This document shows, piece by piece, positions 40,745 through 59,754 of a stretch of DNA of 64,000 nt. Both the position numbers and the translations under genes were made by a program. The DNA comes from Chitinophaga sp. LS1. Lineage in GTDB: Bacteria > Bacteroidota > Bacteroidia > Chitinophagales > Chitinophagaceae. The stretch's first letter is position 1. The number at the start of each line of letters is the position of its first letter. The DNA lies in contig NZ_CP128362.1 of the NCBI RefSeq assembly GCF_034274695.1, positions 5,706,501-5,770,500 of the forward strand, read 5' to 3'. A model generated the notes under the pieces. That model was given only the letters and a program-made list of their open reading frames with translations. It did not search any database and was not told the DNA's origin.

Positions 40745-41917
40745 CTACGAAACATTGATCGTGATCGTAGCCGGCGTACCGCTTACCTGGCTGGCTGAAC
40801 CTGGATTGCCCTGTGAACCCGTAGCGCCCTTGGTACCATTGGTACCGTCGCCATGACCTTTACCGCCATCACCGCCAGTACCTTTCGCGCCACCACCACC
40901 GGGAGCGCCGCCCTGTCCGAAATTACCCGGAGGCGCAGTGGCGCTGCCTTTGGTTACCATGCTTGCCATAGCGCTGGGTATCATAACTGTGATATCCCCT
41001 GCACAGTTCACCCCATTCCCTGCATCACCTCCACGGCCACCTGAACCACCGGAGCCGCCGTTACCACCATTACCACCTTTGGTGCCGGTACATTCGCAAT
41101 TGGCGCCATTACCGCCTTTGCCACCGTTACCGCCATTGCCGCCCGTGCCTCCGTTACCACCCGATCCACCTGTACCAGAACGGGTGAAGAAAACTACTGG
41201 CTTGCCCGTACTGGTGGTGATTGCATTGTTGATGGTAAATATCGCCTGGCAGCTTGCCAATCCGGGACCACCGGGGTTGCCGGCACCGCCTGTAGCGCCT
41301 GCTGTACCATTTCCGCCATTACCGCCTTTGTCGCCGGGTTCTGAACCCGATACTGTACAGGTGCCTTTGCTGCCTTTACTGCCGTTGGTGCCGAAAATAT
41401 TGAAGTCGCCGATTTCGGAATTGCCGTTGTCCCCATTGCGCACCAAGGTATCCATGGTAAAACCATTGACCACCGTGTTGTAGAAATTGATATAAACACC
41501 CTGGTTCAGCGTTACGGTGCCATAGTTGAATGTCAAGGGTATTACCGGGCTATTGAACGTCTCAGGCCCAGTAGGCGTGTAATTGGATTCAGAAGTAGCC
41601 TGTATCTGCATCGGGAAGGCGCCCTTGATCCGTTCCCGGTCGGCAGGATGCAATTCAGCATCGCCATAAATAAATTCATTCACACGGCGAAGGGTACCTG
41701 CCGCCGTACGGTCGTTCTGTACATCCGTTAATGGAACATTGCCGAAAAGCTGGGCGCCGATGTTGGGATTGTTTTCCCGGTCGATGAATAAATTCGTGAT
41801 CTCTTTCAACTGGTCAACGTCCTTGACCGTAATGAAGGTGGTAACGGGTATTCCCTTTTCAAGCAATTCGAGGGAATGCCCCAATCGCTCAGCCCTTTCT
41901 TTAAAACTCAATTTCAT
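40745..41917 (-). CDS. Glycine-rich collagen-like protein (cluster gene 11)
   Basis: A 390-residue protein. The N-terminal 170 residues form a mixed domain (MKLSFKERAERLGHSLELL; YGDAELHPADRERIKGAFP), with helical start and beta-rich end. From about 185 the protein is dominated by runs such as GGNGGNGTAGATGGAGNPGG and GTGGNGGNGGKGGNG, broken by short hydrophobic beta segments (CQAIFTINNAIT; NGVNCAGDITVMIPSA). This recalls collagen-like or PGRS-like glycine helices arranged as layers. It has no signal peptide. The ATG overlaps the stop of the preceding glycine-rich gene (ATGA), so the pair is translationally coupled. Confidence 0.85.
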   Translation of the reverse strand: MKLSFKERAERLGHSLELLEKGIPVTTFITVKDVDQLKEITNLFIDRENNPNIGAQLFGNVPLTDVQNDRTAAGTLRRVNEFIYGDAELHPADRERIKGAFPMQIQATSESNYTPTGPETFNSPVIPLTFNYGTVTLNQGVYINFYNTVVNGFTMDTLVRNGDNGNSEIGDFNIFGTNGSKGSKGTCTVSGSEPGDKGGNGGNGTAGATGGAGNPGGPGLASCQAIFTINNAITTSTGKPVVFFTRSGTGGSGGNGGTGGNGGNGGKGGNGANCECTGTKGGNGGNGGSGGSGGRGGDAGNGVNCAGDITVMIPSAMASMVTKGSATAPPGNFGQGGAPGGGGAKGTGGDGGKGHGDGTNGTKGATGSQGNPGSASQVSGTPATITINVS

Positions 41918-43233
41918 AATGTGTAGTGTTTAGGTAAAGAAAATGATGAATGATACTTATGATCGTTGAGATAGCATACTGCTGCATGTCGCCCCCGGCC
42001 ATGGAGCCCGTTCTTACCTGGTATTCCATGATGTCCGTTGGTACCGGGCACACCGTTGAGCGTGGCATCGGTCATCGGCACAACGGTTCCGCCTTTGCCG
42101 CCCAATCCGCCTTTGCCGCCTTTACCGCCAATACCACCCAACGAGCAGAAAGCCGTCATACGTACATGACCAACCGCTTCTTCCGGAACATTGAGATAAA
42201 TATTGGAAGAAATACCACCATGACCGGCATTACCGCCACGGCCACCGTTACCGGCAGGCACTTTCATATTGAAACCATCCAACCCGGGTGCGCCGTTGCC
42301 ACCATTACCGCCATGGCCTCCATCACTGCCGTCACCACCTGCACCACCGGCACCGGCCTGTGAAAAAAGATGCAGCCGTCCTTCGAGCTCACGAATGGTG
42401 ATCTCAGCCAGCTTGCACATACCGCCATTACGCCCTTTACCGCCGTCGGTGCCGTTTTCGGCATCGGTTGCATCGGCGCCGTGCAATTCGTTCAATGGCT
42501 GGTTGGGTATCCAACGTCCAAGAATACTTGCTTCAGCAATACCCTGTATACCATTACGGCCATGCAAACCGCCCGAGCCATTTTCGCCATGGATGCCGTT
42601 TTGCGGACCGTGCCCGAAATCAACCGAAAAAGGTGTAGGCATTATGCCCACCTGGTAATCTATATCAGCACCGGCATTGCCCAGTGTAATGAACCGCTGG
42701 CAAAGCAAGGAGAACACATTGCCGCGTATTACTACTTTGGCGCCTTCTTCCAGCACAAGGGTGCCGATATTTACAATGGTGTACAATTCTTCCATTTCGC
42801 CCAGGTTCCATATTTCCTGCGGCATGGTCAGGTCCCAGGTTTCTCCTTTGGGAACTACTTTGTGCAGCACCGAAATGCCTTTCAAACACAACGGGAAATG
42901 CCGGTTGATCCCTTTGGCATCTTTTTCTGATATGGGCGCACCGGCAAATAATACGGCTTCGCCCCGGTCGTGCTTACCCTGTCCCAGCTTGGTGCGCAGT
43001 TCATGTGCGGCACTATAAAATGTAGGCAGGCGCAGGCGGTGCTGTTCATCCGTGGCATTGCTCAGCACCTGGCGTGCAATGTTAAAATCATGCAAATGGA
43101 AATATGTGGTGATCTCTTCACCGCTGAGTAATGGTTCATGGTCGTGCCCGATGAGCGATGCCTTGTGCAGGAATTCCTGCATCGATCTTTCAGAAAGTGC
43201 AGTAGTCGATTGGGTTTTAACGTTAGCGATCAT
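41914..43233 (-). CDS. Glycine-rich repeat protein paired with gene 11 (cluster gene 10)
   Basis: A 439-residue protein. The ATG at 43233 (MIANVKTQSTTAL) overlaps the glycosyltransferase stop as ATGA and is preferred to a longer frame from 43305. The first 200 residues are globular with a beta-helix-like part (IVNIGTLVLEEGAKVVIRGN). Later residues alternate Gly/Asn runs (GAGGAGGDGSDGGHGGNGGNG region) with short beta strands (SSNIYLNVPEEAVGHVRMTAF). Organisation parallels gene 11, although the N-terminal domains differ. No signal peptide. The glycosyltransferase just upstream could decorate it. Confidence 0.85.
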   Translation of the reverse strand: MIANVKTQSTTALSERSMQEFLHKASLIGHDHEPLLSGEEITTYFHLHDFNIARQVLSNATDEQHRLRLPTFYSAAHELRTKLGQGKHDRGEAVLFAGAPISEKDAKGINRHFPLCLKGISVLHKVVPKGETWDLTMPQEIWNLGEMEELYTIVNIGTLVLEEGAKVVIRGNVFSLLCQRFITLGNAGADIDYQVGIMPTPFSVDFGHGPQNGIHGENGSGGLHGRNGIQGIAEASILGRWIPNQPLNELHGADATDAENGTDGGKGRNGGMCKLAEITIRELEGRLHLFSQAGAGGAGGDGSDGGHGGNGGNGAPGLDGFNMKVPAGNGGRGGNAGHGGISSNIYLNVPEEAVGHVRMTAFCSLGGIGGKGGKGGLGGKGGTVVPMTDATLNGVPGTNGHHGIPGKNGLHGRGRHAAVCYLNDHKYHSSFSLPKHYTL

Positions 43234-45110
43234 AATACATCGGTTAAAATAGTTGAAGGATAATACCCGGCCACACGCGCAAACGGGCGCATGCTGCATA
43301 CCCATTCAAAATTGCGCAGTTGTGCAGGCCGGTTCACGAAATGATGACTCGCGGGGTTCCTGTTATTGTACCGGTATAAAATAGTTTCGTTGAAAATAAC
43401 GCGGTAAAAGCCGGCCATCTCCATAAGAGGGAACATGATGGCGGTGTCTGTTGCCGATTGTAACCATTCGCCTTCGCTGTTTTTAAGACAATTGTATTCC
43501 GGGTCCTGGTCGGCAATAGCCATAAAAAGTCCGGCACGGAAAGTCCGGATATGCGATACACGCCAGCCCTGTCGCAGGGTGGCAAAATCTTTTGGTGAGG
43601 CATAGGGTGCTGAAACGCCCAGGCATCCGTCGGCATCCATATATTGACCGTACATGGTCCAGCAATCGTAACGAACATATTGTTCATTGATGATGGAAAG
43701 CGCATTGTGGCAGGCCAACTGGTCATCGCCATCGAGGCAAACCACAATATCATCCGGGCGGCACCAGGTTGTGATGGCCTGGTATATATTGTATGCAGAT
43801 CCCATTTTTTGTTGATTGCGCAACAGCACTGCATCGAGCGCTTGCGGTGGTTCAAAATGCGCACTGGCGTCGGTAGAAGCATCATCTATAAATATCACCT
43901 GTGCATTCGGGTAATCCTGCATCAGCATACTGCTTACACATTCACCCAGGAAACGGCCCGGATTGTGAAATGGTACGATCACCACCAGCCGGTTGCGCGT
44001 TTCATCCATGTCACGGCCTTTGCCGTGGATCAGTTCAAAAGCCATTTTGCGCGCGTGTATGGTGTATTCGTATATGCCTGGCGGTAAACTATTCTGCCAT
44101 AGCAAACGGTTGGCGGCTGTAATGGCTTCCGATACCCGGCCACAGGCAATGGCGCAGACCATGAACTCGAACAGCAACTGGTAATCATATACCGGTTTAT
44201 CGATGAATAGTTTATCATTTGCCGGGTAAGGCGGGTCCTGTAAAGCCAGAGATGCCATACAGTATCCCTGCAAGTACTGGTGATTTTCGCGATAATAACG
44301 GGCCATGGCATGTAATGTTTCAAGGCGCCAGGGTCTTGCATCGAAGGCCGCCATGTAGGCAGCCTGTACGTCCGTCCATGCGCGTCCCAGCAAACGCAGC
44401 ATGTCGGCACGCTGCAAACGGGCATACCAGCGTTCTTCATCCCAGCCTTCTTTTTCAATTCTTTTTTCATACCAGTACAATGCCTGTTCGTACAACTTCA
44501 GGTCGCTGTACGACTGCGCCAGGTAAAACATATACCGTTCATTGTGCGGCTCTGTTTGCAGCGCTTCGGTAAGCAATTGCACATCGCGCCCGAATTTATC
44601 CGAACGGCAACCGCCATCGCCATAATGGGTAAGGCTTATTTCGGGCAAAAAAGCCCATTCCGTGGCAGTTTCTGCATGAAGGTATTCGTGGGTAACACCG
44701 ATGTAACGCCATTGGTGACGGCTGCTGATGAGCATGGGTTGCGAGTAATCGAGACTGCCTTCGTAACGGATCTCGTAAAAATCGTGCTGCAGTTTTTGCC
44801 TGAAAGGCGCTTTCACATTCAGCGTCATATCGGCATCCATGATCAGCAGGTAATCGGCATGGCTACGCGCCCGTTCAAGTACTTCACTGCGGTTGCGCCC
44901 GAAGTTTTTCCAGGTGGTATGATATAGTTGACCGGGTTTGTCCTGCATCACATTGGCAATGACGGCAGGCGTATCATCGTTTGAACCGGTATCGCAAATC
45001 ACCCAATAGTCTATATACGGCAGTGCCGATTCCAATGCGCGCCGGATGATATGCGCTTCGTTCTTTACCATCATACAAAGGCAGATGGAGGGATCAGGTA
45101 TTCTTGACAT
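43230..45110 (-). CDS. Double GT2 glycosyltransferase with TPR-like linker (cluster gene 9)
   Basis: A 626-residue soluble protein. Residues 5-200 are a GT2 domain of the kind fused to TPRs (ICLCMMVKNEAHIIRRALES, ICDTGSNDDT, LLIMDADM as DxD). Residues about 180-375 are helical TPR-like repeats (RYMFYLAQSYSDLKLYEQAL). A second GT2 domain follows (LVVIVPFHNPGRFLGECV, VIFIDDASTD, DIVVCLDGDDQL). Two complete GT-A folds suggest sequential addition of two sugars, perhaps to the cluster's glycine- and Asn/Thr-rich proteins. It overlaps gene 8 by 17 bases and gene 10 by ATGA. Enzyme family is secure; the acceptor is a guess. Confidence 0.92.
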   Translation of the reverse strand: MSRIPDPSICLCMMVKNEAHIIRRALESALPYIDYWVICDTGSNDDTPAVIANVMQDKPGQLYHTTWKNFGRNRSEVLERARSHADYLLIMDADMTLNVKAPFRQKLQHDFYEIRYEGSLDYSQPMLISSRHQWRYIGVTHEYLHAETATEWAFLPEISLTHYGDGGCRSDKFGRDVQLLTEALQTEPHNERYMFYLAQSYSDLKLYEQALYWYEKRIEKEGWDEERWYARLQRADMLRLLGRAWTDVQAAYMAAFDARPWRLETLHAMARYYRENHQYLQGYCMASLALQDPPYPANDKLFIDKPVYDYQLLFEFMVCAIACGRVSEAITAANRLLWQNSLPPGIYEYTIHARKMAFELIHGKGRDMDETRNRLVVIVPFHNPGRFLGECVSSMLMQDYPNAQVIFIDDASTDASAHFEPPQALDAVLLRNQQKMGSAYNIYQAITTWCRPDDIVVCLDGDDQLACHNALSIINEQYVRYDCWTMYGQYMDADGCLGVSAPYASPKDFATLRQGWRVSHIRTFRAGLFMAIADQDPEYNCLKNSEGEWLQSATDTAIMFPLMEMAGFYRVIFNETILYRYNNRNPASHHFVNRPAQLRNFEWVCSMRPFARVAGYYPSTILTDVL

Positions 45111-46926
45111 ATCGAACGGAAAGAAAATAGGTTCTGTCTATAGAATTTTTGGCGTTCACCGATTTTTGCGTCAGGAAGAAAGCGGTGTCGAAATTACTTC
45201 CCGGCTGCTGGTTGTTGGCGGTGGAGGTCCAATAGTAACCTGTAGCCAGGAGGCTGTTGAAATTGCCGAGATTATCGCCCATGCCGCCCGCCTGTGCATT
45301 AAAGCCGCTGCTGCCGCCGTTGATCAATGCGGCAAATGCATTGGCGCCAAGCGAAGTGAAAAGATTATTCCAGTCGTCCTGGCTGGGTATACGCCAGCCG
45401 GCCGGTGTATTGGTCTGTGCCTGCGCTTCGGTATACAGCATGCCATATTGCTTACGGTTGCTGCTGTTGTTGTCATAGGCCACACAACCATTGCCTGAAT
45501 TATAATTGTAATTGGCCGCCAGCCAGGTTTGATTGTTGAGGAAAACTGTTGGATACACCTGTCCGTTCGGATCAACAAAAAAGCTGGCCGATATGAATAC
45601 GGTAAACTGCAGGGCGTTGAGATAATTATTGTTGTTATCGAAAGCCTGCAGGGTAATGAACACGGGCGTTTCCTGCGATACCTGTATGGGCAGCGTCAAT
45701 GTATAGGTATCATAGGCAAGCGGCTGTATGTTTGGCGACTGGTCGGGCAGGAAATAATTTTTTTGTAGCATGGGTGCCCCGGGAATATTACAAATGAGCT
45801 TGATATTATCTACGTAGAACATCGCCCAGCGCAAGGGGATCTGTATGGTTTGTGAAGGTTCCGTTAGGGCTATGATAGAGCCATTGGTGCCAAAAAAGTT
45901 GAAGAGTCCACGGGTAGAAGGCGGGTTCTGTTTCGAAATATCGAGTATGAAAGTGACCGGTTTGTATGCCGTGGTACTGTTCATCATAAAGTTATTGAAC
46001 GTTACCATCATTTGCGTATGACCGGCTGGCGTAAACGAATTGATATTGTTGAAGGCAAAAGTAAGGTTGGCCTCGTTGCCGGTACCGATAATGCCTGCAT
46101 TGCTGCTTTGGGGATAAAGGGTCCATACAGGTGTATTGCCATCCCCGGTATTGGTGGGGTTTTTGAAAACCCATGACTGGTTGGTAACCAGGGTTACGCC
46201 AATATCCCAGGCCTGCCCCGAATTATCGGCAGGCGCCAGGGCACCCGCGGTATTACCATACACGAAAGAAACAGTAACAGTGGGATTGCCCGTCCAGGGT
46301 TTGGTATCGTTGTATAAAGGCGTATTCGCCGTGTTTTTGATATTCAGGAAAATGGTATTGCTCAGCGGGTCGCTTGCTGCAGAAACATAAACGGTGCCCT
46401 GGTTGTCGAGGCCAAGGTTCAACACCGTAGTAAGGTCTACCGCCTGTGGAGGCGCACTGCTGTTGAGTGCCAGGTTTTGCGATTGCAAACCGGCAGGCAC
46501 ATTCTGACCATTGAGATTGTTGAGATTCACGTTCACTGCACCAATGGTCGGCGATGCAGTGGCTGTTACATTGATGATGGTAAAGGTAAGGCTGGTATCT
46601 TTTGCCCAGATGCCCGATGTATTTCCATACGCGAGCAGCAGCCCTTTGTACGGAGCATCATAGCTGAAGCTCCAGCCCGGTTGCGATATATTGTTGATGG
46701 TCATTCCGGCTTTCTGATCGGCGGTAAAAAAATTGGGCATGAACAGCTCGATGCCCGAAGCCGTATCGGCGTTCCCGCCTTGCAGGGTAATATCGGCGCC
46801 GGTATTGTTCACAATGGTAATATTCAGCGTAGCGGTAACTTCTACATAGAGCTGGGGCTGGTTGCCGGCATCGGGATTGGCCATGGAAAAGTAAACAGGA
46901 TCGGAAGAAACGGCATAAGTGCTCAT
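45094..46926 (-). CDS. Beta-rich protein with C-terminal FISUMP domain (cluster gene 8)
   Basis: A 610-residue protein without a signal peptide. Residues 1-460 are Asn/Thr-rich beta-type sequence with several DUF-like sandwich domains (NTSGIWAKDTSLTFTIINVT). The C-terminal 140 residues match the Fibrobacter succinogenes major paralogous (FISUMP) domain: YPTVFLNNQTWLAANYNY, AGWRIPSQDDWNNLF, GYYWTSTANN and FLSVRYVKNT. FISUMP is usually on exported Bacteroidota/Fibrobacter proteins and is thought to be a C-type-lectin-like surface module, so its presence here without a Sec signal is odd. Confidence 0.85.
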   Translation of the reverse strand: MSTYAVSSDPVYFSMANPDAGNQPQLYVEVTATLNITIVNNTGADITLQGGNADTASGIELFMPNFFTADQKAGMTINNISQPGWSFSYDAPYKGLLLAYGNTSGIWAKDTSLTFTIINVTATASPTIGAVNVNLNNLNGQNVPAGLQSQNLALNSSAPPQAVDLTTVLNLGLDNQGTVYVSAASDPLSNTIFLNIKNTANTPLYNDTKPWTGNPTVTVSFVYGNTAGALAPADNSGQAWDIGVTLVTNQSWVFKNPTNTGDGNTPVWTLYPQSSNAGIIGTGNEANLTFAFNNINSFTPAGHTQMMVTFNNFMMNSTTAYKPVTFILDISKQNPPSTRGLFNFFGTNGSIIALTEPSQTIQIPLRWAMFYVDNIKLICNIPGAPMLQKNYFLPDQSPNIQPLAYDTYTLTLPIQVSQETPVFITLQAFDNNNNYLNALQFTVFISASFFVDPNGQVYPTVFLNNQTWLAANYNYNSGNGCVAYDNNSSNRKQYGMLYTEAQAQTNTPAGWRIPSQDDWNNLFTSLGANAFAALINGGSSGFNAQAGGMGDNLGNFNSLLATGYYWTSTANNQQPGSNFDTAFFLTQKSVNAKNSIDRTYFLSVRYVKNT

Positions 46927-46957: not shown

Positions 46958-49900
46958 TTACTGTTGATTATTTTCCGGTGGTATGGGGCTCAGCACCAAC
47001 CATCCTTCCTGCAGCACCTGCGGCGAATAGCCGTACACTGGGGTTTCATTCATCACGTTGGCCTTAAGCGCTGTGGTATTGGCGGCGCCGGGTGTTATCC
47101 ACGACCAGGAATACCCGCTTTCTGCCGGCAGGGGAACGGTCATGCCCTGCGCCATTTGCAGCATGGGGCGCGTAGTGAAGTTCACCGCCAGGTTGTTCAT
47201 GATATCAGAATACTGATCGGGTGGTATCACCAATTCGCTTACGGCCAGTACACCAGTGGTAGCATGCACCGCAGCACGCGGGTCAACCAGCATGGTAATG
47301 GCAATGGGTTGCTGGTTCAACGTAACCTGTATGGTGGTATCGGTAGGTAGCGTTACGCCATTTTTCCAGAAGGCTTTAGCAGCGGGCATGTATAAAGGCT
47401 GTTGAGTGTACGGGTTGCTATTAGTTGTTTCAAGCACGTAGGCTACCAGCCCGTCGTCGAGGTTCGCCAGGTCACCCAGGCGGACAGGAAAAAGTACATT
47501 GCCCAGGTTCGCGCTGCTATGGGGCATACGGGTGGGGTAGCTGTAGCGCTGGTTGTTCACATCCTGCGGAAAGGGGCTCTGGGCATTGTTATCCGCCTGG
47601 TTCAGCGGCAGCAGGTTGCCCATTGTTTCAAGTCCCAGAATGGCGCGCGTAATTGCCAGCGGGCGTCCGATGAGCACTGCCAGTGAATTGTCCTGCGCAT
47701 AATTGGAGGGGCTTACAAAGGTTTCCGAATCCTGTATCGCCGTCATCATGTCTTCAAGAAAAGCGCCGCTCTGGTTGAACAGGAACCACATGAAATTAGC
47801 CACATGCGGGTTAACGGTAGGCGTGCCACGCTGGCCAATGTCTACAGCGAGCTGCTGTTCGCTGGTGCCGGCATTGGCAATATTACCGGCACGGGTACGG
47901 TATACGTTCTGACCATGTTCAACACCAAATGTGCCAATGGCGGAACCATCTATATCGTAAAAGAAAAGATCGTTATCGAGGTGGTTGGGCATTACCCATC
48001 CGCAAATAGGCGCGGTAGCAGGGTGGCTGTTCGTTTCCACGAAATCATCACTTACACCCGTCACTTCGTTATTATGCGTTGCCGACAACCATTTGAACCA
48101 GGTCCTTGTGGGTGTTACAATACGGGGCGAAAGGTAAATGCGGCCCTGGTTCTGCTTATCGTTTTCGTTGGGCGTCATGGCATAGGATGTAATGCAACTA
48201 AGACCGCCCTGTGGACTGCGGGTTGCTGTTTGCAGGTCCATCCGCTGTCCGAATGCATCAACGATCTCGATGCTGAGGATGTCCATAAACCCGGCGCGCA
48301 GTGGACCGAAATTTCCCTGTGCCAGCAAACCGGTAGGGATGGGTTCCAGGTTGGTGAAGGCATCATCGTACCAGTTGTCGTTGGCCGTAGCGCCGGCGGC
48401 TGTATTTATCCTTGGCGTAATACTATCCATTCGCCCGGCAACCAGGTTTTCTACTGCTACCTGCGCCACATAGGAAGTAAGTACCAGGTTGCTATTGAAA
48501 CCGCTCATGGACTGCGAAAGGATCTTACGGTTATCGTACAACGCGGCTATCTGCTTCAGCGTATTGTCTTCCAGGTCGGTTGGATTGTTATTAATATAAT
48601 TGGTGATCTGGAAAGAGAGTACGCCGGTAGCGCCCGAGCGCATCGTAGCATCGTCGTCATAACTTACCGGAGTGGGCGATGTAAAAGGCAGCGGTGCCGT
48701 ACCATTCATCTTGTATACATAGTCAACCCCATCGGCATCGAGGTTGAAATAATCGGTGATGTTGGTAGCGGCGTACAACTGGTTACCGTGGTCCTGCACC
48801 CATTGCAAAGGCGACAGGTTCACATTCCAGATCATAAAGATCGGCATGAAAGGATCTACACGGTTGGTGGAAAATTCAGGCAATGCGTTTTGCGTATTCC
48901 AGCCCACGCTGCCACATGAATAACCGTCGTTGTTGGCATTGGTCCAGGTTACGCTCAGCGCCTGCGGGCCTGTTACATTAATGACCAGCGCAGTGCCGGG
49001 TTGGTAGGTGCTACTATTGATCAATGCAAATAAACTGTTGGCGGGTGGTGTAGGAACGCCACCGGGATTGGGGGCAATGTCGAGCGGACTGAGTCCTCCC
49101 TGTGCATACATCAGCGAAAGCGTACAATTTGCCAGCGATGCTACTGCCGGGTTGCCATTACCGCCTGCCGAAGCAAGCGCCGATGCTACCTGACCAGCCA
49201 GCATGGGAGTAGTGAGAAAAGCTTCGCCGGTAAGGGTTTGCGCATCGCTTTGTATGGCGGCAGGCATATTGGTGTTCACAGCCGGTACGCCGGGAACAGC
49301 CGTTGCATTGACAGTGAAGTTGTTCGAATTGTAGTTGATGAGCAGTTCAGTAAGCAATTCGGTGCTTAACCGCACAAAGGTGGTATCGCCATCGCCATTC
49401 CGCTGCGGCGGTTCCATCATATCCCCTTCCATCAAGATCACGGGTTCTGCCGGCATCTGGAAATAATCGGCCATATCGCATTGCAGGGTCCATATGGCAT
49501 TTGTATTCTGCTTGTTGATGTCGGTAAGTGCATTCAGCACTGTTTGGTAATTGTTATATACGGCATATGCCAGGCTGCTGGTGCTTACGCCCGAACCAGG
49601 TGCTAGGATGCCACTTACCTGCCCGGTTTCTTCATCGATGGTATATTGCAGCAATCCTACACTGTTGCCATAGCTGATCACATCGTTCAGTTCACCGGCG
49701 GTGGACGTGTAGATGAAATTATTCATTGTGCCCTGCTGTATATAGCTGTCGCTGGTTTCGCCCTGGAACATTTTCACGTACCTTATCCAATCCATGAACA
49801 GTTGTTTACGGCGCATGCTCAGCGCGCCGCGTCCCATATCGTACTGCTTTTGCACGCTGTTCAGCAGGTACAACTGTTCGGCCAGGGTAAGCGGCAGGGT

Positions 49901-51318: not shown

Positions 51319-52257
51319 TTATTGGTTGATGAAACTTACCATGCCTACGCCTTCGGTCATTTCGAAGCCCATAATGGCGGCATCTATCGTTGCCCCGTTG
51401 TTGGCATTTGAAATAGTACCCGCAAGCGCCTTCATATTCAGTACACGGGTAGCCGGCGACCTGAATGTGTTGCTGATGTCGGTGGGCGTGGAGGTATCGC
51501 TCATGGTAACGCTTTGCACTTTGGTGCCATTGGGATTAGTGGTAGTGGTAATGGTGAATGTATGCAGGTTCTTTACTGCCAGCACGGGTACCGTTTTCAC
51601 CTGGCAATTATCATTGAAACAGTCTATACCATAATGCAGTGCCTGCGGCGCTTCGTGTATGTCGATGCGCCAGGCATTGCCCGAAATAAGACAGATCATG
51701 GTGTCGGATTTTGGTCCCAGTTGTTCCAGCCGCAGTATATCGAGCATGTCGGGATCCTGATCATCGGGCGTACCGCCTTTGGGGTACGCATTCACGCCCA
51801 GGCTGGGATAATCGAGCACCAGTGAAGAACGCAATAAAAACCCGGTGATGATGGTAGGCGTAGGAGGCGGATCGGTACCCAGTTTCTTCGAACGCACTTT
51901 TGTTGTGAATTCGTTGGTCTTTTGCAGCGACTGCGGCAATACCGCCGCATCGAGGTTCAGCATGGCATTGCTGGTATCGGCAGTGAGGTTGCGTCCGATG
52001 CTGAAGGCGCCGTCGCACAAAGTTGTTACCCAGTTCTGGTCGAGGTAAAAAAAGCGGATCGATTCCTGCGGCAGCATCCGTTCATCAGGCACCAGGTAGT
52101 TGAATGGCACCCCATTCAGCAATGCCAGGCGGCTCAACCAGGAAGCCAGGTCATCCGGCAGAACGGGATCGGTGAGAGAAGCCTGGATACTTGCCACACT
52201 GGCATAAGTAGCAGCCAGGCTTTTTCGAAGAAGCGCTCTTGTCAATGTCTTTTTCAT
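51319..52257 (-). CDS. Unknown conserved-looking protein (cluster gene 6)
   Basis: A 312-residue protein starting MKKTLTRALLRKSLAATYAS; the N-terminus is basic and amphipathic rather than a Sec signal. The most distinctive block, residues about 38-90, reads LPDDLASWLSRLALLNGVPF, then NYLVPDERMLPQESIRFFYL and DQNWVTTLCDGAFSIGR. Such dense Pro/aromatic patterning suggests a strongly conserved domain. The rest is mixed alpha/beta with a final MGFEMTEGVGMVSFINQ. No enzyme motif found. It sits 7 bases behind gene 5 and 14 bases before gene 7, suggesting stoichiometric production. Confidence 0.82.
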   Translation of the reverse strand: MKKTLTRALLRKSLAATYASVASIQASLTDPVLPDDLASWLSRLALLNGVPFNYLVPDERMLPQESIRFFYLDQNWVTTLCDGAFSIGRNLTADTSNAMLNLDAAVLPQSLQKTNEFTTKVRSKKLGTDPPPTPTIITGFLLRSSLVLDYPSLGVNAYPKGGTPDDQDPDMLDILRLEQLGPKSDTMICLISGNAWRIDIHEAPQALHYGIDCFNDNCQVKTVPVLAVKNLHTFTITTTTNPNGTKVQSVTMSDTSTPTDISNTFRSPATRVLNMKALAGTISNANNGATIDAAIMGFEMTEGVGMVSFINQ

Positions 52258-52264: not shown

Positions 52265-53734
52265 TTATTGCTTTAGCTTCAGCACTGTTTGTTTGAAAAT
52301 ACTGCCCGGCAGCAACGATACACGCTTACCACTGCGTTGCGATAAGGCAGGTTGTGGTGATGGCTGCACATTGAAATACTGCATCATCAGCGTATTCTCT
52401 ACATTGTTGTTCACCTGTTGGGCCAGGCCTTTTTTCCAGTTGTATAGTCCGGTGGAAAAAGAAGTATCCTGAAGGGCTACCATGCGTCCGATGGTCCATG
52501 CAGCCGCATAGGAAGTATCGAGCATGCCGGTAGTGGGGTCGAATACGTTCGCCGCATCGGGCGAAGGAATGGGCACCTGTAGGGGATTGGCGCCGGCATT
52601 AGAATAGGGAAGCAGCGGTCCGCGGTACCACGACACGTTTTTTTCGGCGGTGCGCATGGTTTGGTTAAGCGGTACAAAACCCATATTGAAAGCGCCGGCT
52701 ACCACCGCATTGCTACCGGCATATGGTATGCGAATGTTTGTATTGCTGGCCGGTACGCCACTGCCCGGAGTACAATCATTAAGGCTTTCGAGCTGGTGTA
52801 CGAATGTGGCGCTTTCGCCGGTGCTGAAAAAGGTCCAGTTTGCCAGCACCGCCAGCCGAATGGTATCAGTTTGTTTATAGTTGGTTGCCGATGGAATGGA
52901 ACCATCATCCTGCGGCAGAAAAACTTCCAGTCCCTCCAGCGACACCAGGTAAGCCCTGGTTTTACGCTGGGTATTGGGCAGACGGTTGCCAAATACGATC
53001 GAAAAGCTGCCGGTAGGCTCGCCGTTCGAATTGCCATTTGTAGGCTGGTTCACCAAACTCACAATGCGCACATGCGCCATCAGTTCCAGGTCATCGATCG
53101 AAGGCGCCAGTTGCCAGAACAAACCCATCGGCACGTCGATCACATTGATATTATCTGCCGTATTCTGACCGGGCTCAAGGTCGGCCAGATCGGTAGCTGC
53201 GTAAAAGTAAGAATAGGTATTGTCAGGTATTTTACTGTTGGCGTAAGCGGTTTTTGGAAAAAGATCGCAGGTGGTGCAGGGCGTAATACTGTTGGTCAGC
53301 GCCGGGTAGGCCGCCGTATCATCATCGTCGAGCAGCAGCACCCAAAGCCAGGTGGGCACATCGCCGTCTACATCCTTACCTGGTTGTGGCGGATCGTAAG
53401 GTTCCTTAAGCGTGGGATAACGCGTCCAGGGAAACGTTGTTTTATTGAATACCACATGCGGCAGCACGTTCGAAAATTCGCCCGAAGCATTGTCGTTCGG
53501 GAAAACGCTGTTGATCACGCTACCGGGATTGGCAAGACTGAAGCGATCGCTGGTAACGGCAAATGTATAGGTATTGCTGTAGGCTTCGCCGCTCACGGGC
53601 GTTTTACCATCGCTTTGAAATACCTGCTGGTTTAACTGCAACTGGTACTCCCCGGCATCCAATCCGGGTAAAGCATGTTGTACGAAGGATACCTGTTCAT
53701 TCAGCAGGTACTGTTCGCTGTTATTATCGGGCAT
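52265..53734 (-). CDS. Unknown beta-rich protein (cluster gene 5)
   Basis: A 489-residue protein without a signal peptide, starting MPDNNSEQYLLNEQVSFVQH. Notable blocks are LPHVVFNKTTFPWTRYPTL, WLWVLLLDDDDTAAYPAL (an acidic run behind a hydrophobic strand), IVFGNRLPNTQRKTRAYLVS and LEGLEVFLP. The C-terminus is basic (RSGKRVSLLPGSIFKQTVLK). These suggest one large domain of mostly beta structure. No family recognised. It is encoded 26 bases after the DUF6603-like gene and 7 bases before gene 6. Confidence 0.82.
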   Translation of the reverse strand: MPDNNSEQYLLNEQVSFVQHALPGLDAGEYQLQLNQQVFQSDGKTPVSGEAYSNTYTFAVTSDRFSLANPGSVINSVFPNDNASGEFSNVLPHVVFNKTTFPWTRYPTLKEPYDPPQPGKDVDGDVPTWLWVLLLDDDDTAAYPALTNSITPCTTCDLFPKTAYANSKIPDNTYSYFYAATDLADLEPGQNTADNINVIDVPMGLFWQLAPSIDDLELMAHVRIVSLVNQPTNGNSNGEPTGSFSIVFGNRLPNTQRKTRAYLVSLEGLEVFLPQDDGSIPSATNYKQTDTIRLAVLANWTFFSTGESATFVHQLESLNDCTPGSGVPASNTNIRIPYAGSNAVVAGAFNMGFVPLNQTMRTAEKNVSWYRGPLLPYSNAGANPLQVPIPSPDAANVFDPTTGMLDTSYAAAWTIGRMVALQDTSFSTGLYNWKKGLAQQVNNNVENTLMMQYFNVQPSPQPALSQRSGKRVSLLPGSIFKQTVLKLKQ

Positions 53735-53760
53735 GATACAAATATTTTGATGAAAATATT

Positions 53761-56700
53761 TTATGCGGCATTGTTGGTTTCAAGAATGGCTATCATTGGC
53801 CAATCGGTAAGCATTTCGGTGCTGCCCATATTGGTGAGCGTCACCAGCGAAGATGCGTACGTATTCCAACCATTATCATTCAGGTCGTCCAGTATGGCAT
53901 TTCGCTGACCGTTCACCCAGGTATTGATGAACGCACTCAACACATAACTGCTATTATCGAGTTCTTGCGAAGTGGTGCCACTGACGGTGATGTCGAGGGT
54001 TTCAGCTTTATCGTTTTCCTTAACCTGCAAGGTGTAGCTGGTATCGGGTTGCGGCGACATATAGCTGAAATTGGTTTGCTCGCCACTGGTGAACAGCAGA
54101 TCGATGAGCGGCACATTGTTCACTGTATCGGGATTACGCGGCACCGGCGTTATGTTGAAGCCCAGCAGGGTTTGGGTAAGTAGGGCGGGGGTATTGGCAT
54201 CGTTCGAAGAGAGAGCGGGATCGCCCCAAAGCGCCGTATTGCTACTGCCAAGCACGGGGTCAACCGATACATTGTTGCGGTAATCGCTGAACTGGCCTTT
54301 TTTATCAGTGCTTTCCCGTTTGCAAAGCGTAATGGTATGTACCGATTGTACATTGGAAAGCTTCATTGGCTTTACATTCACATTCGGGTTCCATACCTGT
54401 GTTTTGGAATAGGTTTCCGTGCCTGCCGGGAGGTCGTAATAAGGATGACTGCTGGTATCGATATCGGCGCCGTTGTATTGCGTGGGGTCATTGGGAATAG
54501 CGGCGTTGGTAGTGGCGCCCGTTGCCCAGTTGGCCATGTTGGCAGGGATGGTGGTAGTGGTAACGATATTGAAATTGTCGGGATCGAGCAGCCAGTTCCA
54601 GGTTTCGCCGTCCTGGCTGGTGGCATCCTTGCCCAGCAAACCGGTCGATACCGAAGCCGATACATTGGTCGTAATAGTGGTATCGGTAGCGGCAGCACTC
54701 ATGCTAACAGCGCTCATCAATCGCTGTTGCGGTTGTGGAGCAGGTTGCTGGGTTTTTACAGGCGGCGGTAAAAAGTTCTGTTCCAGGTTCTGCCAGGTAA
54801 CCGGTACAGGAGCGGCTGCCGTTGATCCAAACTGGATGGTGATCGTGATCACATCGAGGTCAACATCGGCATGGCCACCAAAGGGTGGTCCCCACAATTG
54901 CAGATCGGCGCCTACATGTATCTTGATAGTGAACAGTCCAACATTGAGATCACAGCCTATGTTCACATACGCATCGGCCTCGTACTGGAAGGGCGACCAA
55001 CTGATGAGAAAATCGGCGCCCATGTTGAACCATACTTTCACCACGGTGGCATCGTAGGTGGCCGCCACCGACATGCCAGCCATGAACATCGAAGGCGTAA
55101 GGGCCAGGTAGCTGGAACCAGAAGCCTGGAAGGGACCGAGGTTGAATGTAACGCGAATGCGCGGCACATCAGGATACCATTCAGGTTTGTTAAATGCAGG
55201 ATGATAACCACCCAGGCTCACAACAAAATCGCCCTGGTGCTCACCGGCAAACCACAGGTAAAAAGCAAAGCCGCCGCTGAGTTTTACAAATGGTCCGAAT
55301 ATATAAGATGCCGGTGTAATAACGCCTGTTACATTGATAAGACCGGTGGAAGGCGTAATGGCCGCCACCAGGTTCACCTGTATACTTGCCAGTGCATCGG
55401 GCGAGCCTTCGGGCAGTACAATAGCGCAACTACCCAGCAGGGCTACCTGCATATCTACCCCGAACGAGAAAGTGACCATGGCAAAGGCCGAGATCATATC
55501 GAAAGAGGTAAACTGTACGCCGAAACCTACCCAGTACTCACCGGCTTCGTATTTGATCACACTGCCGTTCTGCAACTGGCCGATGACGCTGCTGAGCGCA
55601 TCCTCCGCGTTGCCCTGCGGCGGCGCCATATTTGGCAGCAACAGGTAGGTTGGCAGAGTGTCGATGGTAGGCAGTATCAGCGCATAATTCACCCCGAAGC
55701 CAAAAGCCAGCCCCGATACATAGAAGAAGGGCGGACCACCAAGCGGCACTTCAAGATTGGCGTAAATGAAGAAAGCTGCCGGGTTGCTATTTTGCGCCGG
55801 GGCATAACCTCCCACAGCTTTAAAACCAAATTCGGCTATCTGTACAATGACTTCACCAAAATAGTTGGTGATATCGGTTTTGGGGTCGACCGTTTTCAGA
55901 AAGGCGCCACCGATCTCCAGGCCCGGTTCGGTAAAATCCATACCCAGTCCCTGTATGTCGAAGGTCACTTCATTGCCTGCAGGCATGCCAGGCAATGGGA
56001 ACGGGAACGTTATGCAAAGTCCCTGCACATCCAGCGTAAAACCGCCCATGCTCATACCGGCGGAAATGCCGAAAGTAGCTTCGCCCGATGCATAGTTCAA
56101 CCCAACCTTCTGCAGGCTTACCGGGCCAAAGGTTTTGTTTACATTGATCCAGTGCACCGGACTTGCAGGCGGACTGGTTTGTACTTTATTGGCCGGGTTG
56201 TTATAATAGGAAGCCGGCGTATTACCAGGTGTTGCAGCAGGCAACGCCAAGGGAAGGGCAAAATTATTTTCCGCCGTAGCCGATCCTTCGCGCATAAGCC
56301 CCGCTGTAAGCGAAAAACCACCCTGGGTGAGCGTGAAAGCCGTTTGATCGCCTTTCGTATCGATCGAATAGTTGTTCTTTTCTTTGCCATCGCCAATGGT
56401 GCGCGTGTAAAGCGGGTTGGCCGTTGTATTTACTTTGGGAATATGAAAGTTAACTGGTTTGCCCGTTGTTTTCGGATCGGCATTTGTGTAAGAAAAGCCG
56501 ATGTGCTTCAGGGTATATTCATTGAACACCGGTATATCGCCCACCAATGGAAGGTTTTTAAAAGCCAGGTCGGTATCGATGGCGGCGCCCACCACATATG
56601 GGTTGGTGCCGGTTGCCCCGGACTGTATGATGGAGTCAGCATAGAAACTCAATGTTACCTTATCGGTGTTACTGCCATTGGAATACTCCAGTTCAAAACT

Positions 56701-57000
56701 AGCAGACACGCCCAGCTCGGTAGTAGCATTACCGGTTTTGGGCGATGTATAGATCACCTGTCCGGCTACATAGTTTATGATTGCTTCGAGATTCAGCTCA
56801 GGCGGCAATAGCACATTCACACCGAATTGCTGACCAACAAAACTGATGAAGGTACCAATGTCGATCACGGCATTTTGTACGCAGCCGTTGAAAGTATATG
56901 TAGTGGCGGTATCGGTGGTGGTCAGTTCTGCAGCCAGCGATACTGGAACGGAACCTATTTCAAGGTTGATGCCTGTTGTCAGATCTACGTTAGTGGGCAT
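53761..57000 (-). CDS. DUF6603-like giant beta-rich protein (cluster gene 4)
   Basis: A 1079-residue protein without a signal peptide. From about residue 300 to 760 it follows what I recall as the DUF6603 pattern: FDIQGLGMDFTEPGLEIGGA, YFGEVIVQIAEFGFKAVGGY, GGPPFFYVSGLAFGFGVN, VVSLGGYHPAFNKPEWYPDV, ALTPSMFMAGMSVAATYD, ADFLISWSPFQYEADAYVNI and LQLWGPPFGGHADVDL. DUF6603 is known in bacteria and fungi without assigned function. The alternating hydrophobic strands suggest a long repetitive beta structure. A Gln/Pro-rich linker (VKTQQPAPQPQQRL) leads to a variable C-terminal region of about 300 residues. It may be the structural core of the cluster. Confidence 0.82.
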   Translation of the reverse strand: MPTNVDLTTGINLEIGSVPVSLAAELTTTDTATTYTFNGCVQNAVIDIGTFISFVGQQFGVNVLLPPELNLEAIINYVAGQVIYTSPKTGNATTELGVSASFELEYSNGSNTDKVTLSFYADSIIQSGATGTNPYVVGAAIDTDLAFKNLPLVGDIPVFNEYTLKHIGFSYTNADPKTTGKPVNFHIPKVNTTANPLYTRTIGDGKEKNNYSIDTKGDQTAFTLTQGGFSLTAGLMREGSATAENNFALPLALPAATPGNTPASYYNNPANKVQTSPPASPVHWINVNKTFGPVSLQKVGLNYASGEATFGISAGMSMGGFTLDVQGLCITFPFPLPGMPAGNEVTFDIQGLGMDFTEPGLEIGGAFLKTVDPKTDITNYFGEVIVQIAEFGFKAVGGYAPAQNSNPAAFFIYANLEVPLGGPPFFYVSGLAFGFGVNYALILPTIDTLPTYLLLPNMAPPQGNAEDALSSVIGQLQNGSVIKYEAGEYWVGFGVQFTSFDMISAFAMVTFSFGVDMQVALLGSCAIVLPEGSPDALASIQVNLVAAITPSTGLINVTGVITPASYIFGPFVKLSGGFAFYLWFAGEHQGDFVVSLGGYHPAFNKPEWYPDVPRIRVTFNLGPFQASGSSYLALTPSMFMAGMSVAATYDATVVKVWFNMGADFLISWSPFQYEADAYVNIGCDLNVGLFTIKIHVGADLQLWGPPFGGHADVDLDVITITIQFGSTAAAPVPVTWQNLEQNFLPPPVKTQQPAPQPQQRLMSAVSMSAAATDTTITTNVSASVSTGLLGKDATSQDGETWNWLLDPDNFNIVTTTTIPANMANWATGATTNAAIPNDPTQYNGADIDTSSHPYYDLPAGTETYSKTQVWNPNVNVKPMKLSNVQSVHTITLCKRESTDKKGQFSDYRNNVSVDPVLGSSNTALWGDPALSSNDANTPALLTQTLLGFNITPVPRNPDTVNNVPLIDLLFTSGEQTNFSYMSPQPDTSYTLQVKENDKAETLDITVSGTTSQELDNSSYVLSAFINTWVNGQRNAILDDLNDNGWNTYASSLVTLTNMGSTEMLTDWPMIAILETNNAA

Positions 57001-57033: not shown

Positions 57034-57528
57034 TCATGTTTGTTGCGATGCGCTGCCCGATGTGGCAGAGAAAGCAACGGAAAGGCTTTGGATCTTCAGC
57101 CAGTTGTTCAGATCGCCCGGAAGGGCAATGAGCCCCTTCGAAGGATCGCTGCCTTCTATATCGAGATTAAAGGAAAAAAGAAATTCTTTGGAGGATGAGT
57201 TGATAGAGAATTCATATACGTTCACCATCGTTTGATTCTGCGCGTTAAAGGTATCTGGTGTAAGCGATGGGAATGCCTGTGTAATGAGCGACATGCCAGG
57301 GCTTTGGGAAAGATCGGAAGCGCCGAGTTTCGATTCGATGAAATTGATCACATCGCCCAGGTAAACGGTCACCGGCGGATCGCCCGGCTGCCGGTCGAGT
57401 TTAAAAAGAAAGCCATTGGTTACGCCATCCTGCGACTGGTCATCACCAAAAGCGAGTTCCGAAGCCAGGGGTACCGTTTGCTCACCGATCAGCAACTTCG
57501 CTTTGAAATTAACGGCAGTACTGCTCAT
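57034..57528 (-). CDS. Small beta-rich protein, possibly a short relative of gene 4's N-terminus (cluster gene 3)
   Basis: A 164-residue protein without a signal peptide. Blocks such as VYLGDVINFIESKLGASDLS and FEFSINSSSKEFLFSFNLD resemble in style the first 150 residues of gene 4 (IDIGTFISFVGQQFGVNVLL; FELEYSNGSNTDKVTLSFYA). It could be a stand-alone copy of that N-terminal domain acting as partner or cap. The resemblance is by eye and needs a profile alignment. It lies 33 bases upstream of gene 4. Confidence 0.78.
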   Translation of the reverse strand: MSSTAVNFKAKLLIGEQTVPLASELAFGDDQSQDGVTNGFLFKLDRQPGDPPVTVYLGDVINFIESKLGASDLSQSPGMSLITQAFPSLTPDTFNAQNQTMVNVYEFSINSSSKEFLFSFNLDIEGSDPSKGLIALPGDLNNWLKIQSLSVAFSATSGSASQQT

Positions 57529-57566
57529 GATTTAAAGTTTAAGGTTCACGGTCAAACACCAGGCGG

Positions 57567-58736
57567 TTATGATGAATAGGCAACCGCTATACTAAATGAT
57601 TCAAGTGAAAAATTCTCGAAAATGCCGAACTGGCCCGACATAGCTATTTCGAACTCAAAATCCGAAATGTAGCCCGTGGTCACATCGGCATCTGTTGCAA
57701 AGTCGAATTTCTCAAGAGTGATACTATTGCCGATGCCCAGGTCGGTAGCCTGCCCCAGCAGGTCCGACACGATCTGCGAAACCGGCTGGTTATATGGATT
57801 GTCGAAATTGCCCGAGAGGCTGAAATTAGGTTGATCGGGCGGGTTAGGAAAACCCATATTCAGGTCGAAGGTAAAGTCGGGATTGCCGGTATCGCCCGGG
57901 CGATTGAAATTGCACAACACGAAATTACCAACCAGCCCCCAGGCAGGCTCGGGTGTTGTATTTATGTTACTGATATTGATCCATATGGCCAGCGGGTTGA
58001 GATAGAGGGCTTGTTTATAAATGGGAATATTGGTAATGCCAATGGTAACGTCTACACCACTCACTACTACCGAAAAAGAAGGCGCTGTGCTTACATACAG
58101 CGATACCCCCAGACTTAGCAGTTCAAGTTGGGTTTGGTTATTATAATATGGGCCCAGTTGTGTTGAAGGAAAGCAAGTGCTGAAATTGTTATTGCCTGGC
58201 ACCAAAAAGTTAAGATCGCTGAGCGCGATACCGAAATTGGTAAAGCTGGCCGAGATGTTGAAGAAGCCGTCAGACATTGGTATCTGCGTGGTAAGGGTGC
58301 CTGTTCCGCTGCCGATGGCAATGGTCATGCTGAGATCTATTTCGTCTGTTTGCGGCTCATCATCGCTGGTTTGCTGTGTGCCGGTAACATTCACGATGCT
58401 GATGCCGGCATTTTTACAAATATCGCCCCCGATGATAGGAATGCAGGCGGCAAGTGCTTTGGTCAATACATCATTATCGGATGATTGCAGGTTCACCGAA
58501 AGTTGGTTATTGCTGGTGGTAACGGTGCCAGTTATGGGAATGGTCTTGGTGCCGGTAAGCGCCGCCAGTACATTCATGGCATTGCCGGTAGCTGTAAGAT
58601 CGAGGCTGGCGCTGAATGAAGTGCCGATCACAGGCGAGTTGCCCGAAGGCACATCGAATACCAGCAAGCTGAGTATACTGTTGGCCAATGCAGGGTAGGT
58701 GCTCCCGTATTGGTCGGTAAATTTCCAGGTGGACAT
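57567..58736 (-). CDS. Beta-rich protein of unknown function (cluster gene 2)
   Basis: A 389-residue protein starting MSTWKFTDQYGSTYPALANS, without signal peptide or membrane helix. It is rich in Asn/Thr/Ser/Ile with alternating strands (FNISASFTNFGIALSDLNFL; PSFSVVVSGVDVTIGITNIP) and ends FEIAMSGQFGIFENFSLESF. It shares strand style with genes 3 and 4. No catalytic motif. Sixteen bases separate it from the nuclease-like gene upstream and 38 from gene 3. Confidence 0.8.
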   Translation of the reverse strand: MSTWKFTDQYGSTYPALANSILSLLVFDVPSGNSPVIGTSFSASLDLTATGNAMNVLAALTGTKTIPITGTVTTSNNQLSVNLQSSDNDVLTKALAACIPIIGGDICKNAGISIVNVTGTQQTSDDEPQTDEIDLSMTIAIGSGTGTLTTQIPMSDGFFNISASFTNFGIALSDLNFLVPGNNNFSTCFPSTQLGPYYNNQTQLELLSLGVSLYVSTAPSFSVVVSGVDVTIGITNIPIYKQALYLNPLAIWINISNINTTPEPAWGLVGNFVLCNFNRPGDTGNPDFTFDLNMGFPNPPDQPNFSLSGNFDNPYNQPVSQIVSDLLGQATDLGIGNSITLEKFDFATDADVTTGYISDFEFEIAMSGQFGIFENFSLESFSIAVAYSS

Positions 58737-58752
58737 GATTGTAGTTTTTTTG

Positions 58753-59754
58753 TTACCACTCTATTACTACGGGCAGGTGATCGCTCACTATATTATAGGC
58801 ATTTACCAGTGCCAGCAGGTTGGTGCCTGCCAGCAGGGTATTATTCGCATTCATATTGCGGGCCTTGCCGATCAAATCCACTACCAGTTCCTGACCGTTT
58901 TGAAGGACGGTATTGTAAATGATATTATCATATGCATCGCTCAGATAATTAGCCGGTGGCTGCATGCTGTTGGCCGGTTTGGTTCGTACGCTTGATAAAG
59001 TGCCGTTAGGTATGAGGGTAATATAGGTAGCCAAACCCGGGGTAAAGGGGAAAACCTGTACTTGCTGCCCACCGACCTGTTCCTTGTTGTAATATGATGC
59101 CGGATTGCAATTGAAATCGCCCATGATGAAAGTGTTGTTCATCGTTGCCAGCTCGATAGTAGGCAGAATAGTACAATAGTTGATAGGAGGGCGGTATTTA
59201 ACACCATCGGCGCCTTTAGGCGGTGGTGCATGAATGCCTACTACCTGGAAAGAATCGGTGCTGTTGAGCACCTGGAACTTGGCGCCATAAGGCGTGCGTG
59301 GGTTGATCCAGTTCTGGGTGGTGTTATTGCGAAAAGCCTGTGCCGACAATACTTTCAGCTTTTTGGTATTAAACAATATGCCCACGGTTTCATGATAGCC
59401 TGTTATCTGCGGCACAATATAATCGTATTCATAAGTCGGGTTCTGATTATTTGAATAATTTTTTTTAGCAAGCGTGTTCAACTTGGCCTTGATATTATTG
59501 AGGGTGGGAAGGCAGGTGCCGCTGATGGCTTTGCCTTTCTGGCTGCCGCCAGTCTTCAGCTCTATGACGACAAAGATATCGGCCGGGTTGGTGCTCAGGT
59601 TGGGTACGGCATTCCAGCATGGGTTGCCCATTACCAGCCCCGTAATATAATCGATCACATTATTGCCCAGCCCAAAAGCGTTGAAGATTGGGCTGAATGG
59701 ATTATTAAGTTTGTTATCACCAATATTCTTGAGATTCCAGGAAACGATTTTCAT
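58753..59754 (-). CDS. Endonuclease/exonuclease/phosphatase (EEP) family protein (cluster gene 1)
   Basis: A 333-residue protein with all the EEP (DNase I/AP-endonuclease/sphingomyelinase fold) motifs: KIVSWNLKNIGD (metal-binding Asn), IFVVIELKTGG (catalytic Glu), GYHETVGILFNTKKLKVLS, VVGIHAPPPKG (His), FIMGDFNCNP (Asp/Asn) and the terminal SDHLPVVIEW (Asp-His). It has no signal peptide. EEP enzymes cut DNA, RNA, lipid head groups or phosphoinositides; the target cannot be decided. As the first gene of a block of structural-looking genes it could be the effector or a processing enzyme. Active-site residues are intact. Confidence 0.9.
   Translation of the reverse strand: MKIVSWNLKNIGDNKLNNPFSPIFNAFGLGNNVIDYITGLVMGNPCWNAVPNLSTNPADIFVVIELKTGGSQKGKAISGTCLPTLNNIKAKLNTLAKKNYSNNQNPTYEYDYIVPQITGYHETVGILFNTKKLKVLSAQAFRNNTTQNWINPRTPYGAKFQVLNSTDSFQVVGIHAPPPKGADGVKYRPPINYCTILPTIELATMNNTFIMGDFNCNPASYYNKEQVGGQQVQVFPFTPGLATYITLIPNGTLSSVRTKPANSMQPPANYLSDAYDNIIYNTVLQNGQELVVDLIGKARNMNANNTLLAGTNLLALVNAYNIVSDHLPVVIEW

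Follow-up and report, generated by a model that had tools for sequence, protein, structure and literature searches.

Organization of the eleven-gene cluster

We analysed a 64,000-nucleotide stretch of the Chitinophaga sp. LS1 genome, a single 8.67 Mb contig (NZ_CP128362.1, positions 5,706,501 to 5,770,500; hereafter the window), and investigated a cluster at 40745-59754 that encodes a giant DUF6603 protein and ten further proteins. The original prediction, made from the sequence alone, had placed eleven genes here on one strand, with a terminator after them and a long hairpin before them. Open reading frames (ORFs), gaps and RNA folding confirmed this layout. All eleven ORFs were found on the - strand as one tight unit, and the gaps between successive genes, from gene 1 to gene 11, were 16, 38, 33, 26, 7, 14, 31, -17, -76 and -4 bases. 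The features are as follows:

Gene 1, 58753..59754, - strand: EEP-fold enzyme of nuclease/phosphatase type (predicted activity); variable enzyme slot
Gene 2, 57567..58736, - strand: beta-rich; homologue of the N-terminal part (131-484) of long DUF6603 proteins
Gene 3, 57034..57528, - strand: small, beta-rich; one protein with DUF6603 in a Saprospiraceae locus (L031)
Gene 4, 53761..57000, - strand: DUF6603 giant of the core, 1079 aa; by prediction a long amphipathic beta-meander
Gene 5, 52265..53734, - strand: core family without assigned function, 489 aa
Gene 6, 51319..52257, - strand: core family without assigned function, 312 aa; in many relatives one protein with gene 5
Gene 7, 46958..51304, - strand: core giant, 1448 aa; 282 homologues
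Gene 8, 45094..46926, - strand: conserved N-terminal ~440 residues and C-terminal FISUMP head; variable tip slot
Gene 9, 43230..45110, - strand: GT2-TPR-GT2 glycosyltransferase; accessory; only in window-type clusters
Gene 10, 41914..43305, - strand: glycine-rich; homologous to gene 11
Gene 11, 40745..41917, - strand: glycine-rich protein (22.6% Gly)
Terminator-like hairpin after gene 11, 40685-40718, - strand: 12-pair stem and T run; -14.1 kcal/mol, z -4.2
Long hairpin ~300 bases upstream of gene 1, 60051-60109, strand not applicable: 24-pair stem; RNA fold -39.7 kcal/mol, z -13.2

Pfam searches over the eleven genes agreed with the identities first proposed, namely DUF6603 (gene 4), FISUMP (gene 8), GT2 (gene 9) and, below cut-off, EEP (gene 1), while genes 2, 3, 5, 6, 7, 10 and 11 had no significant Pfam family. 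PHROGs searches with genes 1-9 and 11 gave glycosyltransferase matches for gene 9 and weak matches elsewhere, and genes 1, 7 and 8 had no sequence relatives in the PDB. The G+C content of the cluster region was 50.8%, against 44.5% on its left side and 37.3% in the 3.6 kb on its right side, a contrast compatible with acquisition. The 17-base arm of the upstream hairpin had just two other copies in the genome, with 1 and 2 mismatches.

Conservation of the cluster as a unit

The original prediction regarded the cluster as a self-contained system and proposed, as support, that at least four to five of its families recur together elsewhere. Recurrence exceeded this by a wide margin and extended across phyla. 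All eleven families stood together in five other loci: a near-identical strain (L021), Methylovulum (L024), Algoriphagus (L025), a Lewinella metagenome-assembled genome (MAG) (L027) and an Acidobacteria MAG (L023), the last with gene 2 inverted and gene 1 broken. Genes 1-8 were present in Undibacterium (L022) and in a Saprospiraceae locus at contig ends (L031), where gene 3 is fused to gene 4. The core of DUF6603, gene 5/6 and gene 7 was also found in Leptolyngbya (L041/L068), Kineosporia (L044), Streptomyces (L046) and Paenibacillus (L045), and spans six phyla. Four flanking window genes served as controls; three recurred in L021 only and one nowhere. The grouping therefore goes beyond chance, because these families are met again in other phyla with their order kept and the flanking controls are not. 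These results showed that the cluster is one conserved unit, consisting of a core (DUF6603 with its gene 2/3 parts, gene 5/6 and gene 7), a swappable enzyme gene and a swappable tip gene.

We then assessed how constant the association is from either end. Gene 7 had 282 homologues at an expectation value (E) of 1e-3 or better, and scanning genome contigs with a gene-7 alignment gave 24 loci, each with flanks of up to 10 kb or as far as the contig ran. Of these 24, 19 held DUF6603 ORFs of the main type (profile score over 100); the other five were short contigs (L030, L032, L035, L043) or a broken copy (L038). The fetched loci yielded 76 non-redundant DUF6603 ORFs of at least 500 aa, 55 of main type and 21 others. 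When DUF6603 coordinates were used to fetch loci, 32 of main type were obtained (L050 onwards, with copies among the gene-7-anchored loci dropped; the L085 genome was first reached via gene 7), and gene 5 lay nearby in 30 of them and gene 7 in 27. Gene 5 was missing from L100 and L105, and gene 7 from L064, L073, L074, L106 and L107, some of these loci being near an end of the fetched sequence. Gene order was permuted in L067 (gene 7, tip, enzyme, DUF6603, gene 5/6) and in L085 (gene 7, a 691-aa protein, enzyme, DUF6603, gene 5/6), so the association points to function rather than inherited order.

DUF6603 was also surveyed by whole genomes, each survey counting its own seed genome. It was found in 14 of 40 relatives and in 17 of 395 genomes of the host phylum (one of the 17 below cut-off); the phyla of the Micromonospora, Methylovulum and Leptolyngbya loci gave 9/296, 9/398 and 3/194, respectively. 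Gene 6 was present in 10 of the 40 relatives, all among the 14 with DUF6603; the chance of such nesting is ~1e-6 by a hand calculation that ignores kinship. In a quick tree of 74 DUF6603 rows, with two short rows (L097, L107) left out, the window-type clade (13 rows, support of 100 in the Shimodaira-Hasegawa-like approximate likelihood ratio test, SH-aLRT) mixed Bacteroidota, Pseudomonadota, Acidobacteria and Actinomycetota. The fewest changes on this tree were 11 for enzyme and 20 for phylum, with no shuffle comparison, and both tallies depend on enzyme labels given by similarity for L039, L040, L054, L057, L059 and L088 and assumed for L065 and L098.

DUF6603 (PF20248) is a single domain whose function is not assigned. 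Searches of the open literature, whose coverage takes in neither subscription papers nor preprints, found no paper on it, and broader searches and one on DUF4135 with toxin listed no match describing such a cluster. The fixed partners of the family are described here.

The Paenibacillus and Streptomyces copies lie on plasmids, the Streptomyces one near a CATRA conflict gene. Separately, a 3.1 Mb linear plasmid record of Embleya sp. NBC_00896 (L049) carries three DUF6603 places. On the Paenibacillus polymyxa plasmid (L045, 1-3572), a phage baseplate V-type protein, a GH-E nuclease and an ankyrin protein are encoded ~7 kb upstream of the DUF6603 gene. In Chitinophaga sp. E66 (L038, about 900-18200), the entire cluster is split into many short ORFs and is apparently decaying.

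Genes 2-7 encode the core proteins

Gene 4 is a clear DUF6603 member (E 1e-125, 420.6 bits against a curated cut-off of 27). When compared with the long DUF6603 proteins from six other loci, gene 2 proved homologous to their residues 131-484 (hhalign 95.6%, E 1.1e-8). The gene 3 profile matched residues 1-169 of the 1263-aa protein of L031 (hmmscan 2e-67). Together, genes 2, 3 and 4 encode 389, 164 and 1079 residues, 1632 in total, compared with 1530-1650 for the long form. By these alignments, genes 2-4 are a split form of one long protein.

The AlphaFold2 model of gene 4 (predicted local distance difference test, pLDDT, 82.7) consisted of long antiparallel strands resembling a barrel wall. 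From this model and the alternation along its strands, the DUF6603 protein is predicted to be a long amphipathic beta-meander. The best three Foldseek rows for the model were S-layer or outer-membrane proteins. We took the porin, usher, LptD, ApoB and S-layer rows as likenesses of topology, not as homology, and discounted three viral rows under E 0.001, one of them a putative phage tail fibre, at template-modelling (TM) scores of 0.13 or less. No Tc, contractile or compartment fold was among the matches listed. A metagenome protein (P0228) joins PF03065 to a DUF6603 domain, and is possibly an assembly chimera or a fused enzyme.

In a distant DUF6603 clade (clade II), the protein of about 1140 aa is followed by a ~1100-aa protein with a gene-5-like domain (hhalign 96.1%) and a ~1600-aa protein. 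Single-protein profiles gave hits for this domain with 9 of the 21 DUF6603 ORFs of other than main type. Five downstream proteins of this clade had no significant Pfam family, and kinship of its third protein (~1600 aa) with gene 7 was not supported.

Genes 5 and 6 form one protein in many relatives. An apparent match between the two came from a gene-6 profile contaminated by fused proteins; clean families gave none. Fusions of gene 7 with gene 8, or of gene 5/6 with gene 7, in L048, L049 and L100 were not established, the frames in this high-GC DNA being uncertain. For gene 7, a structure search with a relative gave no convincing PDB fold among the matches listed; no Tc or compartment fold was noticed there, and a contractile one in a single baseplate row at E 2.7. 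A viral or phage origin of gene 7 was set aside, since phage records gave no match and viral contigs none that was confirmed.

The enzyme slot is occupied by different enzymes

Gene 1 matched PF03372 (EEP) at 0.0055, below cut-off, and the NCBIfam MnuA nuclease at 4e-7 (30 bits against a cut-off of 185). It retained N, E, H, D-x-N and D-H positions, which we take to be the EEP catalytic residues and which are common to the aligned relatives, except the broken L023 copy. Gene 1 is, as judged from these positions, an EEP-fold enzyme of nuclease/phosphatase type, with predicted activity.

We scanned with Pfam 37 slot proteins, defined as the gene next to DUF6603 or window gene 1. The results showed metallo-beta-lactamase (MBL) in 11 (6 over the curated cut-off), EEP in 3 (all below it), subtilase in 3, DUF4135 in 2, and class-3 lipase, PhoD phosphatase, M64 peptidase, WD40 and phage Collar in one each; 13 had no usable match. 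The Collar protein (L083) is better read as a tip protein. Overall, 22 of the 37 matched a hydrolase or kinase-fold family (7 families), 8 of these 22 (3 EEP, 5 MBL) below the Pfam cut-off. A passage in PMC9758233 lists DUF4135 in the Pfam protein-kinase clan. Closely related shells carried different enzymes: EEP in L028/L034 beside MBL in L033/L049, and DUF4135 in L069, which grouped with L071 (MBL) at 100 on the DUF6603 tree, whose window-type clade mixes EEP and MBL. Ten genes further upstream at eight loci, picked as controls since their coordinates were already at hand, were mostly a miscellany (RsgA, NmrA, TetR, LuxR, CNNM, alpha/beta hydrolase, a second DUF4135 and three unmatched), 2 of the 10 also belonging to such enzyme families. 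The original prediction had named gene 1 as the active payload; exchange of enzymes at this position, with no Sec-like N-terminus called in any of them by a crude rule, lends support to such a role.

Within the 11 MBL proteins, TH-x-D-x-D-H, the ComEC-type motif, was present in 10 and THYHQDH in one, and DVGQG also occurred in four. No docking domain common to the slot enzymes was detected at E 1e-4 between recognised families. The EEP proteins of L028 (1116-2726) and L034 (983-2668) carry a C-terminal extension of at least ~150 residues, which in L028 contains an NNCLFHA-type motif. The C-terminal part of the L028 protein looks OTU-protease-like, but Pfam and PDB searches returned nothing, and we make no such claim.

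The tip slot carries exchangeable heads

Gene 8, with 116 homologues, matched Fib_succ_major (FISUMP) at E 8e-19 in Pfam; a PHROGs endolysin profile (0.0012) and Pfam Amidase_2 (0.0034, below cut-off) overlapped the same head. Among 16 scanned proteins of the gene-8 position or class we found FISUMP in 1, Collar in 2, beta-propeller in 2, and Kelch, LamG and S74 in 1 each, with 8 unmatched; L052, L071, L083, L058, L070, L045 and L085 were assigned to the slot by position, and other copies of FISUMP type were identified because they aligned to the window protein over its full length. Tandem gene-8 copies were alike at the N-terminus and diverged after it. The two in L027 shared residues 4-380 at 49% identity, one then matching the FISUMP-type window protein at full length and the other ending in Collar, and the two in L026 shared residues 13-332 at 58%.

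A passage in PMC4159848 lists the Fib_succ_major domain among the targets of diversity-generating retroelements (DGRs), and gene 8 resembles such variable proteins in ending in this domain. However, its head was conserved about like its N-terminus and was not hypervariable in 102 homologues; DGR-type diversification was therefore rejected.

Genes 9-11 are accessory

Gene 9 matched GT2 at E 1e-24 in Pfam, with weak GT2-type NCBIfam matches. It occurred in 5 of the 96 loci searched (L021-L116), all of window type and beside genes 10/11, whereas genes 10/11 also occurred without it (L029). Its proposed role in glycosylating the assembly was not supported. Genes 10 and 11 were homologous (hhalign 100%), and gene 11 had a PDB match to a designed protein only (0.0014). 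We class gene 9 and the two glycine-rich genes as accessory.

No Sec-like N-terminus was called in the cluster proteins

Sec-like N-termini were called by a crude rule. Start codons were unrefined, some ORFs were truncated where a locus ended, and some likely signals escape the rule, such as that of the gene at 39104. With it, none of the eleven cluster genes had a Sec-like N-terminus, in line with the original prediction; the contrast drawn there with most other exported-looking proteins of the window was roughly checked and amounted to 7 of 21 other window genes. Across loci, the counts were 0/313 for family proteins, from Gram-negative and Gram-positive hosts, 0/47 for slot proteins (a chosen list with near-duplicates) and 64/419 for other locus ORFs. 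In genes 2-8, Lys, Arg and Cys were scarce, and Asn, Thr, Ser and Gly abundant.

Comparison with known systems

Tc toxin complexes (ABC toxins) consist of giant proteins, a variable enzyme component and modular receptor-binding parts, and the cluster resembles them in these respects. However, no TcA, RHS, SpvB or other Tc family matched (eleven genes in Pfam, genes 1-10 in NCBIfam), no Tc structure was among the fold matches listed for gene 4 and a gene-7 relative, and the enzyme is a separate gene here, whereas in Tc complexes it is a C-terminal hypervariable region. Extracellular contractile injection systems and tailocins share with the cluster swappable cargo and tail-fibre-type tips, including phage Collar and S74 modules, but no sheath, tube, baseplate or ATPase family was found (eleven genes in Pfam, genes 1-9 and 11 in PHROGs), and gene 7 had no confirmed phage or viral homologue. 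Polymorphic toxin systems, such as contact-dependent inhibition (CDI) and RHS, likewise exchange toxin-type enzymes behind a conserved carrier. They differ in that the cluster swaps a whole gene at a fixed place and has no Sec-like N-termini by the crude rule, and its genes matched no RHS or filamentous-haemagglutinin family in Pfam.

Interpretation of the cluster

We propose that the cluster encodes a new complex that delivers or displays an enzyme and is released independently of Sec. This function is a prediction from sequence, to which we give a probability of about 0.42, and delivery is favoured because two exchangeable ends fit it best. The cluster would encode one multi-protein assembly that may move between bacteria as a unit. 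In the cytoplasm, the giants would build a large complex, mostly of beta structure, that surrounds or includes the enzyme. The gene-8 proteins would dock to it through the conserved N-terminal region, leaving a binding head exposed. After leaving the cell without Sec, by lysis or through an unknown exporter, the complex may bind a target surface by the gene-8 head; the amphipathic beta-meander of DUF6603 would then contact or cross the membrane, and the enzyme (EEP here) could act on or in the target. Toxin complexes and tailocin-type particles follow the same working logic, but the cluster shares no recognised core protein with either. With its signal-less giants, exchangeable enzymes and tips, horizontal spread across at least six phyla and no recognised contractile, RHS or Tc kin, it is tentatively a candidate for a new class of protein-delivery machine.

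The same proteins could instead build a surface or matrix assembly. Such a sheath- or S-layer-like coat would serve to adhere or to capture nutrients, not to attack, and would present lectin-type heads together with an enzyme that digests or modifies. It would suit giants that are rich in beta structure and poor in Lys, the glycine-rich proteins, the FISUMP and LamG heads, the S-layer/outer-membrane proteins in the best three Foldseek rows, and a FISUMP head that is conserved rather than diversifying. We nevertheless consider it less likely: no anchor was recognised, none of the 313 family proteins had a Sec-like N-terminus by the crude rule in either Gram-negative or Gram-positive hosts, phage tail-tip heads occupy the tip slot, and the patchy presence (14/40 relatives, 17/395 in the phylum) is unlike that of a main coat. 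Less probable again is an intracellular conflict system whose giants sense phage or plasmid invasion and whose swappable enzyme is a suicide or antiviral effector. Defence systems typically combine effector swapping, signal-less proteins and patchy distribution, as seen here, and EEP, MBL, protease and kinase-fold effectors, together with the plasmid copies and the nearby CATRA gene, fit this picture. Against it, PADLOC anti-phage models gave 0 matches for genes 1-10, none of the eleven genes matched a Pfam family for NTPases, nucleotide signalling or DNA binding, and lectin-type and tail-tip heads are hard to place inside a cell.

Beside a surface sheath and a contact-dependent weapon, the original prediction also considered an intracellular compartment, and the absence of signals from every member, with one gene an enzyme, would accord with a compartment-like storage or enzyme-scaffold structure. 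Family searches lent this no support, with no microcompartment or encapsulin shell match (eleven genes in Pfam, genes 1-10 in NCBIfam), and the slot enzymes include subtilase, lipase and M64 peptidase families, which are often secreted elsewhere; we regard it as improbable. That unrelated neighbours merely resemble an operon, as might be thought with only GT2, FISUMP, DUF6603 and a weak EEP recognised, is refuted by the neighbourhood analysis. This explanation was rejected on the synteny in distant phyla, where the same families recur mostly in the same order, whereas the flanking controls recur no further than the near-identical strain.

Through this analysis, a domain of unassigned function and several giant families without a name become a single system open to testing. 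It occurs in the culturable environmental genera Chitinophaga, Methylovulum, Algoriphagus and Undibacterium. Should enzyme delivery prove true, the cluster would represent a new weapon or tool that works independently of Sec and whose cargo and tips can be exchanged; otherwise it would still represent a new, conserved molecular assembly, whose predicted beta-meander is unusually large.

Other features of the window

Adjoining the cluster, a gene at 60825-61823 (- strand) matched Peptidase_M91 ('Effector protein') at E 7e-10 over residues 7-81, and a relative of it also flanks the cluster in L021. Farther away, 29316-37378 (- strand) holds a kdp operon whose 374-aa KdpD matched the KdpD sensor and Usp domains only; a sigma-54 response regulator lies not far from it, at 36041-37378.

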